From the NCBI GenBank assembly GCA_902500995.1, contig CABVSR010000001.1, forward strand, positions 1 to 64,000: 64,000 nucleotides of DNA, in the 5' to 3' direction. Numbering within the stretch: position 1 is the stretch's first letter; the number at the start of each line of letters is the position of its first letter. The DNA is from an uncultured Nitrospira sp. GTDB lineage: Bacteria; Nitrospirota; Nitrospiria; Nitrospirales; Nitrospiraceae. A program made the position numbers and the translations under genes. Below, one piece after another: positions 55,465-63,129 of this stretch. The notes under the pieces were generated by a model. It ran no database searches. It had not been told where the DNA came from and worked only from the letters and a program-made list of their open reading frames with translations.

Positions 55465-56721
55465 ATGATGAAACATGCGATGGCGGTTCAAGACGATACA
55501 GATCCCACGGTGACCGTAGAAGTCGACCCGGACGCCGATGACGCAGAAGCCAGCACGTTGCTGGATAGCATCGCGCAGGGCGACCAACCTGAAGCAGAGG
55601 CCGAGGAAGCGGTACCCGAAAAGCCCTTGCGTTCGGCATCGTCTCCTTTTCTTTTGGAGTCTTTATATTTTCGTTCGTTCGGCGAACGGGGACTGCTGGA
55701 GCGGGATGAGGAAATCCGGCTCGCCAAGCAACTCGACCTCGGCACACGGCAAATTCGCCAGACCCTCCAGCAGGCGGTGAAAGCCTGCGCAGGGGTGAAA
55801 CGCTCGGAAGCGGTCACCGAACGCATCCAGACATTGCAGACGGTCCGGCGACTCAGCGGTCTGTCGGCCACGGCGCTGAACGACGCCGACCGCGCGCTGG
55901 CCCAATTGCTGTCGGACCAGATCATCGGCGTGAAGATTCCGGCTGCGGTACGGAGGGAGTTGGAGTCCTGCCTCGCCACTCTGCGACAGTCCCGCATCAC
56001 CCTGGAAACGGCAAAGGATGAACTGGTGCGCTGCAACCTCCGGCTTGTAGTGAACGTCGCGAAGCATTACACGGGACGGGGCCTCACATTGCTGGATCTG
56101 GTGCAGGAGGGCAATATCGGCTTGATGAAAGCCGCCGAGCGGTACCAGCATCGCAAAGGATTCAAATTCAGCACCTACGCCACCTGGTGGATCCGGCAGG
56201 GCATCACACGCTCCCTTGCGGATCAGTCGCGCACCATCCGGATTCCGGTGCACCAGACCGAAGCATCGAATCGGATTCTCCGGGCCTCGCGCCGCCTGGT
56301 GCAGCAGTTAGGGCGCCAGCCTCGGCTGGAGGAAGTCGCCTCGATGATGCGGATGCGCCCCGATCGCCTGCATGAAACCATGCAAGCGTTCCAAGAACCG
56401 GTGGCGCTGGAACATCATGTCGGCGATGGTGGGACGGAACTGGGTGAACTGCTCCCGGATCAACAAGCGGTCCCGCCGGATGCCCATGTGAACCGCACGG
56501 AACTCACCCGCGAGATGGACCGGATTCTCGGCACGTTAACGCCCAGGGAGCAGACGGTTATCCGGTTACGTTTCGGTATCGGCGAGGATCAGGCCCGCAC
56601 CCTGGAGCAGGTGGGCCAACATTTGTCGGTTACGCGCGAACGCATCCGGCAGATCGAAGCCAAGGCGTTGAAGAAGCTCAAGACCCCCATGGTGAAGGAA
56701 ATGTTCGCCGCGCTGAAGTAA
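55465..56721 (+). CDS. RNA polymerase sigma-70 factor, RpoD/RpoS-like
   Basis: A 418-aa group-2 type sigma factor. After an acidic N-terminus (DPDADDAEASTLLD, EAEAEEAV), region 1.2 starts near residue 64, and a ~90-residue insert precedes region 2, which has LRLVVNVAKHYTGRGLTLLDL and the -10-reading FKFSTYATWWIRQGI near 236. Region 4 ends with LTPREQTVIRLRFGIG and VTRERIRQIEAKALKKL. A strong terminator follows. It is probably an alternative rather than the primary sigma factor because its N-terminus is short. AAGGGG precedes the ATG. Confidence 0.92.
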   Translation: MMKHAMAVQDDTDPTVTVEVDPDADDAEASTLLDSIAQGDQPEAEAEEAVPEKPLRSASSPFLLESLYFRSFGERGLLERDEEIRLAKQLDLGTRQIRQTLQQAVKACAGVKRSEAVTERIQTLQTVRRLSGLSATALNDADRALAQLLSDQIIGVKIPAAVRRELESCLATLRQSRITLETAKDELVRCNLRLVVNVAKHYTGRGLTLLDLVQEGNIGLMKAAERYQHRKGFKFSTYATWWIRQGITRSLADQSRTIRIPVHQTEASNRILRASRRLVQQLGRQPRLEEVASMMRMRPDRLHETMQAFQEPVALEHHVGDGGTELGELLPDQQAVPPDAHVNRTELTREMDRILGTLTPREQTVIRLRFGIGEDQARTLEQVGQHLSVTRERIRQIEAKALKKLKTPMVKEMFAALK

Positions 56722-56746: not shown

Positions 56747-56782
56747 ACACGGGCGAGGCCTCGGCCTCGCCCGTGTTGTTTT
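56747..56782 (+). terminator. Rho-independent terminator after the sigma-factor gene
   Basis: A 13-bp perfect stem ACACGGGCGAGGC with loop CTCG (56747-56776) is followed by TGTTTT (56777-56782). It is the clearest terminator in the window. Confidence 0.9.
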
Positions 56783-60810: not shown

Positions 60811-61287
60811 TTACGGCACTTCGACGATGTCTTTCTTCATCGGCCCGAGCAGAGCTAGGAGCTCGCCCTTTTCTCCCGCCGGAACATTGAATCTGTCGAG
60901 CGCCGCCACCAGGTCCTGGACCAATGCCCCGAAATCTGTGGAGCTGATCTGCATGCCGAGATGCGTGGCCTTCATATCGCGCCCCTGGTACGTACAAGGC
61001 CCGCCGGTTGCCTGGCACACTTGGTCAACGAGATGCCCCTTCAATTTGGGGATATCGGTCGTCGCAAACCGGTTGTTGATTCGCCCGTCGGCCGCAACGT
61101 TCGCGACAAACTGATCCACCACCGCCGTAATCGCAGGCTTCCCTCCCAAGCGTTCGTACAAGGACTTCGCGGCATGGGCGCCGGCTGCCGGGCGCTGAGT
61201 CCCGTTCGCCGTTCCCGTTTCAGCGCATCCGGCAAACATGGCCACGGCCCCCAAGAGCATCACGCCCACTCCATACTTCCCTACCAT
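60811..61287 (-). CDS. Exported truncated haemoglobin (group 1) lipoprotein
   Basis: A 158-aa protein starting at 61287 with AAGGAGG 6 nt upstream. A lipoprotein signal precedes Cys21 (AMFAGC). The mature part is a group-1 truncated globin: LYERLGGKPAITAVVDQF near residue 43, RFATTD near 73, KGHLVDQV near 83 and the proximal His109 in KATHLGM. Two Cys (91 and 98) could form a disulfide. Globins of this type bind oxygen or NO; export to the envelope is unusual. Confidence 0.85.
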   Translation of the reverse strand: MVGKYGVGVMLLGAVAMFAGCAETGTANGTQRPAAGAHAAKSLYERLGGKPAITAVVDQFVANVAADGRINNRFATTDIPKLKGHLVDQVCQATGGPCTYQGRDMKATHLGMQISSTDFGALVQDLVAALDRFNVPAGEKGELLALLGPMKKDIVEVP

Positions 61288-61426
61288 CGCCGACCTCCTT
61301 TGATGTGAATAGTTCGGCTGCTCACCTCGCTTCCGACAGGAACGCAAAGCACTGTGGCGCGGCAGCCCGATTGACCTCCAGACCTTAGGAGATTATGATC
61401 CATTCGTCTAATATATAGTTTTCATG

Positions 61427-61453
61427 ATCGCTATAGGTTTTGACTATAGCGAT
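61427..61453. promoter_or_regulatory. Palindromic operator, OxyR-like (ATAG-N7-CTAT)
   Basis: A perfect inverted repeat ATCGCTATAG-N7-CTATAGCGAT, immediately upstream of the LysR start. It contains ATAG-N7-CTAT, the half-site of OxyR. It lies in the 180-nt gap between the globin and the regulator genes and overlaps the likely leader. Confidence 0.75.
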
Positions 61454-61467
61454 AAGGAAGCGGACTT

Positions 61468-62475
61468 ATGGAGCTACGGCAACTCGAATACTTCATGGCC
61501 GTCGCGGCGCACCAGAATTTCAGCCGTGCCGCGGAACAGGTGCATGTGTCGCAACCCTCGCTGTCGATCCAGATCGGCGGATTGGAAAAGGAGCTCGGCG
61601 CGCGCCTGTTCGACCGCCTCGGGCGAAAGGTCGTGCTGACGCAGGCCGGCGAGCTTTTTCATGTCCATGCCGAGCGAGCGTTACGTGAAGTGGAACAGGC
61701 GCAGCAGGCGGTTCACGAGCTCCTCGGGGCGAAACGCGGCCGCTTGGTCGTCGGGACGCTGTCGACAGTCAATTCCTATCTGATTGCCCCGCTGGTCTCT
61801 CGATTCAAACAGCGTTTTCCGGACGTGCATCTTCAGGTGCATGCCCAACCGTCTTCCGAGATCGTCACCGGTCTGCTCCACAGTCGCCTCGATATCGGGA
61901 TTTGCCTGCTCCCGCTGGCCCATGCGCACCTCACCACCGTACCGTTGTTTGAGGAACGACTCGCCCTCATCGCGTCCGCCGGCATGAAGCTCGGAAAGCG
62001 CCGCGCGCGCATGCAGGATCTTGCGCAAGTGCCTCTCGTCCTGATGCCGGCGGACTATTGCCTGAGGAAAATGGTGGAAACCGAATGTGCGAAGGCGGGC
62101 GTTCACCCGCGGGTGGTGCTGGAAATGAGTTCGCCGGAAGGCATTCTCCAGGCCGTGGCGGAAGGCACCGCCGCGACAATCCTCCCGGAGCTTTACGTCA
62201 AATCCCGGCTTCCGGCATCACGGCTGCAGATCATCGACCTGTACGATCCCACGCCTCGCCATACAGTCGGACTGGCGTACCTGACCAAGCGGCATCGTGG
62301 CCGAGCTGCCGAAGAGTTTGCCACGCTCTGCGTCTCCACCATGCGTGATCTGCAATCCGGCTCCAACATGCTTCCCCGGGACCGCCACCTCAAGCGGAAA
62401 TCGGACCATTCGAGACGGGCACGGAGGCCGGCCTCAAGCCTCCCTGATCCTCGAGAAGCGCCGTCGCGAGCTTGA
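61468..62475 (+). CDS. LysR-type regulator, OxyR-like
   Basis: A 335-aa protein. The N-terminal winged HTH has LRQLEYFMAVAAHQNFSRAA and VSQPSLSIQIGGLE. The C-terminal domain has two Cys, C198 and C207, in YCLRKMVETEC, with the spacing of the redox pair C199/C208 of E. coli OxyR. The regulator may thus sense peroxide. AAGGA precedes the ATG. It is divergent from the globin gene. Other LysR types are possible if the Cys are not redox-active. An Arg-rich C-terminal tail (30 aa) is extra. Confidence 0.88.
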   Translation: MELRQLEYFMAVAAHQNFSRAAEQVHVSQPSLSIQIGGLEKELGARLFDRLGRKVVLTQAGELFHVHAERALREVEQAQQAVHELLGAKRGRLVVGTLSTVNSYLIAPLVSRFKQRFPDVHLQVHAQPSSEIVTGLLHSRLDIGICLLPLAHAHLTTVPLFEERLALIASAGMKLGKRRARMQDLAQVPLVLMPADYCLRKMVETECAKAGVHPRVVLEMSSPEGILQAVAEGTAATILPELYVKSRLPASRLQIIDLYDPTPRHTVGLAYLTKRHRGRAAEEFATLCVSTMRDLQSGSNMLPRDRHLKRKSDHSRRARRPASSLPDPREAPSRA

Positions 62476-62598
62476 AAGTCAGACAGCCGCTTGGATAGAA
62501 TGCCCTGTTGCCTGACTCTCCTTTGTGTCATTCGATCGGTCATGGTTACCCAGCCTGAGGTTTCAACACAGGCTTTCATGGGCTCTATGGAGGCATTC

Positions 62599-63129
62599 AT
62601 GATGCAGCGTACGCGGACGTTCACAGCGTTGATGACTTTGCTGGGGTCCTTCTGCCTCGCTGCGATCGTCACTGCCGAACCGTACGAACTCAGCAAAAAC
62701 GACCTGACCGACCCGAAGGGCATCTCCAGCCAGGATGTCTCGCTGTTCGGCATCAAATTGGGAGATGATGAAGGGAAAGCGCTCGACGGGTTGGTGAATG
62801 AAAAGATTCCCGGCATCAAGGCAGAACAAGAAGCCACCTTCATTTTTCTGCTCGATCAGCGCAAGCCGACGGGGCCGATGGCCGGCGTGCGGGTGCAAGA
62901 CGGCAAAGTCGATCTGATCTTCATCAACAATCGGTTTGCGTTTAAGACGCGCGGCATTTTCCGCAACGTGCTCAATAGCGAAAGCCCGGACGATGTGCGC
63001 AAGATCCTCGGCAAGGAAGATTACGGGGATGAGAATGTCATGGGCGCCATGCTGGCCTATGACAAGCAGGGCTTTCAGGTGAATTATCTCGGCAAGGACG
63101 TCAACGTGGAGTTTTCACTTCCCCGATAA
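62599..63129 (+). CDS. Exported protein, 176 aa
   Basis: Starts at 62599 with GGAGG 5 nt upstream. Signal peptide FTALMTLLGSFCLAAIVTAEP. The mature part has DVSLFGIKLGDDEGKALDGLVNEKIPGI and KILGKEDYGDENVMGAMLAYDKQGF, a repeated mixed alpha-beta pattern without a known family. Probably periplasmic. Confidence 0.7.
   Translation: MMQRTRTFTALMTLLGSFCLAAIVTAEPYELSKNDLTDPKGISSQDVSLFGIKLGDDEGKALDGLVNEKIPGIKAEQEATFIFLLDQRKPTGPMAGVRVQDGKVDLIFINNRFAFKTRGIFRNVLNSESPDDVRKILGKEDYGDENVMGAMLAYDKQGFQVNYLGKDVNVEFSLPR

Follow-up and report, generated by a model that had tools for sequence, protein, structure and literature searches.

A CynR-like LysR regulator and an exported globin form a conserved divergent unit with a three-site operator in Nitrospira

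A divergent regulator and globin pair

The window, by which we mean the whole 64-kb stretch of Nitrospira DNA that was analysed, carries a LysR-type regulator gene that is transcribed divergently from the gene for an exported globin. The features of the locus are as follows.

60811–61287, minus strand: exported truncated-type globin lipoprotein, 158 aa, divergent from the regulator; PF01152, 59.4 bits (cut-off 21)
61371–61399, plus strand: regulator promoter, sigma-70-type, TTGACC-N17-TATGAT
61382–61411, minus strand: putative globin promoter, −35 TTAGAC at 61411–61406 and −10 TAAGGT at 61387–61382
61402–61416: inverted repeat IR3, here ATTC-N7-ATAT, centre 9 bp from that of IR2
61411–61425: inverted repeat IR2, ATAT-N7-TCAT, centre 22 bp from that of IR1 in every orthologue
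61427–61453: perfect 10+7+10 palindrome, ATCGCTATAG-N7-CTATAGCGAT, outer bases not conserved
61433–61447: inverted repeat IR1, ATAG-N7-CTAT, the core of the palindrome
61468–62475, plus strand: LysR-type regulator, CynR-like by profile and fold, 335 aa, PF00126 and PF03466
62059–62061, plus strand: codon of Cys198, which corresponds to OxyR C199 and begins helix 198–209
62086–62088, plus strand: codon of Cys207, equivalent to OxyR C208

The regulator has the two domains of its family, scoring 82.1 bits for HTH_1 (PF00126, cut-off 26.6) and 167.6 bits for LysR_substrate (PF03466, cut-off 28). The globin begins with a signal sequence that ends in an invariant Gly-Cys lipobox, and its candidate proximal His, in THLGM, is invariant as well. 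Two further invariant cysteines lie five residues apart in the globin (QVC-x5-C, the second in ATGGPC) and could be linked by an extracytoplasmic disulfide.

We collected 38 orthologues of the regulator: 26 from 61 related genomes, 11 from a family-wide search and one from a search of the phylum. The nearest named loci are those of Nitrospira MAGs, at 87–90% identity, and the most distant orthologue, at locus L201 of a genome from another family of the same order (G358), is 49% identical. In 38/38 loci the globin is placed divergently beside the regulator. The regulator is missing from five Nitrospira genomes that look complete (G003, G007, G017, G021 and G027), and these also have no linked globin, carrying only paralogues of ≤64% identity or a fragment. 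In G029 (L197:1983–2320), a single deletion has taken most of the regulator, the operator and the start of the globin, so that the ends of the two genes are now joined; the flanks are intact. Thus, the two genes are kept and lost as a unit.

The regulator orthologues of G020 (L009) and G010 (L019) contain an early in-frame TAA and are possibly pseudogenes or assembly errors. Downstream of the regulator lies an exported protein of 182 aa (62581–63129) with no Pfam match, whose homologue is still at the site in G029 despite the deletion of the pair. The globin and this uncharacterised protein are the regulator's neighbours, and no cyanase genes adjoin it. In G007, a paralogous exported globin is flanked on one side by an ECF sigma factor and on the other by a ChrR-type cupin-domain protein, probably an anti-sigma factor (L198:455–3070); such a layout is familiar from oxidative stress control. 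Elsewhere in the window, a perfect long inverted repeat, ACACGGGCGAGGCCTCGGCCTCGCCCGTGT (56747–56776), follows a sigma-factor open reading frame ending at 56721 and is probably a terminator.

The operator and the promoters

The first-pass annotation had described a perfect 10+7+10 palindrome containing ATAG-N7-CTAT upstream of the regulator, and this element is indeed present at 61427–61453. It is the only N7 palindrome with 10-bp arms and the only ATAG-N7-CTAT in the 64-kb window, and ATAG-N7-CTATAG has a single match in the 3.97-Mb genome, at the same site. Among 140-bp regions, ATAG-N7-CTAT occurred in 24 of 26 real upstream sequences versus 0.55% of dinucleotide-preserving shuffles. Window-wide uniqueness and the shuffle tests together reject a chance palindrome. 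As a match to be expected upstream of orthologues, the palindrome held up in its core, which recurs in all 37 family-level regions (31 exact, 6 with one mismatch), but not in its full 10+7+10 extent. Its outer bases are particular to this genome, and ATAG-N7-CTAT is the conserved part.

The conserved operator is larger than the palindrome and reaches left to about 61402. A conserved block to the left of IR1, ATTCGTCTAATATATTGTTTTCAT, holds IR2 and IR3 in the same register; in several more distant orthologues IR3 reads ATAG-N7-ATAT. The spacing of the three repeats (IR1-22-IR2-9-IR3) is invariant in 37/37 family-level orthologues and recognisable in L201, at 49% protein identity. Three-site scores reached 19–23 of 24 in 25 real regions and were mostly 10–14, never above 18, in 3000 shuffles, a contrast that overstates significance because the scoring consensus came from the same regions. 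L201, a distant locus left out of consensus building, scored 20.

This arrangement matches the group-two layout of divergent LysR regions, with three inverted repeats whose centres are 22 and 9–10 bp apart, in all 37 orthologues and in L201. Three-site divergent regions have been described for OxyR, IlvY and CynR, with centres at −65/−43/−34 for ilvC (22 and 9 bp) and −66/−44/−34 for cynT (22 and 10 bp) (PMC5002191). The window region shares the layout and spacing of these systems and differs from them in its target, an exported globin, and in its host, Nitrospira.

A search for the composite operator, allowing up to three mismatches and using the reversed motif as a control, gave one match in each of 21 of the 25 Nitrospira genomes; 16 further genomes of the order, and the reversed control, gave no match. 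Because the composite operator occurs only at this locus in Nitrospira, it points to a dedicated local switch. With one composite site per genome, a wide regulon in Nitrospira is rejected; E. coli OxyR, in contrast, has a regulon.

In the OxyR operator, four ATAG-type elements lie in consecutive major grooves. The string ATAT-N7-TCAT-N7-ATAG-N7-CTAT in the window has this four-element spacing, and ATAG-N7-CTAT is shared with the E. coli OxyR operator; the same string also agrees with the general LysR consensus and with the CynR layout. The general consensus, CTATA-n9-TATAG (PMC5002191), is present exactly at 61431–61449 as CTATA-GGTTTTGAC-TATAG. In L201, the IR1 sequence is ATAA-GAAATAG-TTAT, that is, the form ATAA-n7-TTAT of the E. 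coli CynR operator. Since the motif is that of LysR proteins in general and L201 carries the CynR form, ATAG-N7-CTAT does not single out OxyR. It is also absent from the upstream regions examined for the Nitrospira OxyR group in related genomes, which carry a different conserved block, AGTCCAATTGAT. On these three grounds, an OxyR-specific operator is rejected.

A promoter scan found the sigma-70-type promoter of the regulator (one found versus 0.1 expected in shuffles), and its TTGAC is conserved in orthologues. The globin promoter matches the consensus poorly and was not picked up by the scan; we place it from conservation and from the CynR model (PMC5002191), which predicts a transcription start 66 bp away from the centre of IR1. 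Its −10 element is TATNGT in most orthologues. The conserved spacing of the operator could also preserve overlapping promoter elements. The invariant divergent arrangement and the conserved footprint lend good support to control of both the globin and the regulator's own gene, one of the options raised in the first-pass annotation.

Family placement and the cysteine pair

By profile HMM, the regulator scored 245.8 bits against the CynR model NF008416 (cut-off 277) and 157.1 bits against the OxyR model NF008361 (cut-off 329), both below cut-off, and its orthologues behave in the same way. An AlphaFold2 model (mean pLDDT 89.3) gave as its top VIA-align match the regulatory domain of E. coli CynR, with or without the CynR effector azide (Z 26.6; 203 residues, rmsd 1.9). 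For the P. aeruginosa OxyR regulatory domain in its reduced form Z was 23.6, and full-length C. glutamicum OxyR chains reached Z up to 26.4, with an rmsd of 5.6. In a tree of 58 rows, from which the two cysteine columns had been taken out, the OxyR-like proteins of Nitrospirota grouped with E. coli OxyR in a 99/99 clade; the best tree places the window orthologues outside it, near CynR and its Bacillota relatives. The closest sequences outside Nitrospirota in the genome scan were also Bacillota LysR proteins (Paenibacillus, Compostibacillus, Oceanobacillus), at 30–41% identity. A joint clade with OxyR was left unrejected by the AU test in the 58-row set (p = 0.156) and in a reduced tree without long branches (p = 0.227), in which deep-node support was 73/29. 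CynR is the closest family by profile, fold and best tree, although the deep tree position is not firm. Membership of OxyR is unlikely even though the tree test leaves the joint clade standing, and the OxyR label is not justified. Taken as a check of the initial OxyR-like description, this placement is mostly unfavourable.

Only three full LysR regulators are encoded in the genome. The second is an OxyR (contig C41:6276–7100, G000) that scored 241.5 bits on the OxyR model, below its cut-off of 329, has the motif GHC-x8-C and lies divergent from a di-haem cytochrome c peroxidase (PF03150; L132:5187–7554). In a comammox Nitrospira genome study, oxyR is recorded for most of the Nitrospira genomes (PMC5596200). 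Given this separate, better OxyR beside a peroxidase, the only features that would link the window protein to peroxide are its two cysteines. The third LysR protein (contig C30) is a paralogue with 43% identity; it adjoins a MOSC-domain gene and belongs to a group with Cys198 and Phe207. Cys198 can therefore persist without its partner.

The first-pass annotation had noted that Cys198 and Cys207 have the spacing of the redox pair of E. coli OxyR. Alignment bears this out column for column (C199 and C208, with eight residues between), and the two proteins also share a CLR motif and a divergent arrangement. The pair, or its equivalents, is conserved in 38/38 orthologues, within the near-invariant stretch P-x-DYCLRKM-x8-C; its loss among close relatives, which would have spoken against the initial reading, was not seen. 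Among the 24 uninterrupted orthologues, however, 143 of 295 columns (48%) are invariant and so are all four cysteines of the regulator (146, 198, 207 and 288). Cysteine conservation as proof of redox function is rejected on this count, because it does not single out the pair.

Cys198 is the unusual member of the two. A cysteine at position 207 is widespread, occurring in E. coli CynR, which has Ala at position 198, and in most Bacillota relatives, in which position 198 is Phe, Tyr, His or Gln. Mapped on the tree, a minimum of three changes is needed to explain Cys198, and two to explain the pair. The origin of Cys198 thus appears independent of that in OxyR, an assignment that depends on the unsettled deep position of the regulator. 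Around the peroxidatic cysteine, OxyR has Thr100, Thr129 and His198. The window regulator retains Thr100 and replaces Thr129 by Ser and His198 by Tyr; Arg266, the proposed thiolate stabiliser of OxyR (PMC2881104), is replaced by His. In the model, Cys198 opens helix 198–209 and Cys207 lies near its end, so a disulfide between them could form only after local unfolding, as in OxyR, where the two cysteines are about 17 Å apart in the reduced fold (PMC8063818).

The proposed switch and its signal

The regulatory unit is real, conserved and dedicated. Very probably it works as a local switch, in which a CynR-side LysR protein binds 61402–61447 and controls its own gene and the exported globin lipoprotein. 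The conserved pairing, the three-site operator, the single target site and the invariant cysteines are observed; binding, the direction of regulation and the signal are what we infer from them. By analogy with the group-two model, the regulator without its signal would occupy IR1 and IR3, which overlap the start region of the regulator and the putative globin −35 element, and both promoters would be held down. With its signal, it would move to IR1 and IR2, and the globin would be activated. As its signal, the regulator may respond to a thiol reaction involving Cys198 and Cys207 or to a small molecule bound in a CynR-type pocket, and we lean slightly toward the latter.

A small ligand is the usual signal for most LysR proteins, and we consider it somewhat better than an even prospect here. 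That the regulator is a ligand-sensing protein of the CynR type, in which the cysteine pair is structural or incidental, is about evenly balanced. CynR is its best match both by profile and by the fold of the regulatory domain (Z 26.6, rmsd 1.9), and the paralogue that keeps Cys198 with Phe207 fits a pair of this kind. E. coli CynR, with its divergent cynTSX target and its three inverted repeats, resembles the window system closely, but its cyanase genes have no adjacent counterpart here, nor is there an adjacent catabolic gene. This reading also leaves the invariant Cys198 at the end of the pocket with no evident reason.

Thiol redox sensing is a serious possibility that falls short of probable. 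The regulator would then be a redox switch with an evolutionary origin separate from that of OxyR, an idea we hold with less than even confidence: Cys198 would be oxidised by peroxide, by NO-derived species or by another oxidant, would form a disulfide with Cys207, and would turn the globin on. Both cysteines are present in every orthologue, they are apart in the modelled reduced fold, as in OxyR, and the pocket Thr100 is retained. Against this, so many other columns are invariant that the pair does not stand out, Cys207 occurs in CynR and in many relatives without Cys198, and three residues of the OxyR pocket are replaced. The peroxide-responsive switch put forward initially is supported in part: the cysteines are in the OxyR register, but the operator is not specific to OxyR and a better OxyR lies elsewhere in the genome, next to cytochrome c peroxidase and without ATAG-N7-CTAT upstream. 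Peroxide sensing, as judged from sequence, is possible.

That the regulator is a true second OxyR with a small regulon is very improbable, since the C199/C208 register, the ATAG-N7-CTAT operator and the AU values (0.156 and 0.227) are set against an OxyR profile score of 157 bits versus 242 for the other Nitrospira protein, a best tree that joins that protein and not this one with E. coli OxyR (99/99), a fold nearer to CynR and different pocket residues.

In the literature searched, we found no paper that treats Nitrospira, LysR proteins and globins together. A dedicated switch has the advantage that a single target and its operator are both fixed, so its function is directly testable. Tentatively, and with slightly less confidence than we give to thiol sensing as such, we suggest that a LysR protein of the CynR side independently gained an OxyR-like cysteine switch and controls an exported globin. 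Nitrite-oxidising Nitrospira would then have a second thiol-based sensor of oxidant or NO beside a true OxyR in control of cytochrome c peroxidase. If the cysteine pair is not a switch, the locus is a caution that an OxyR-like pair together with ATAG-N7-CTAT is insufficient to identify OxyR. If it is a real switch, the mechanism of OxyR would have arisen again in another branch of the LysR family, and the locus would reveal a way in which nitrifiers detect oxidant or NO at their envelope.
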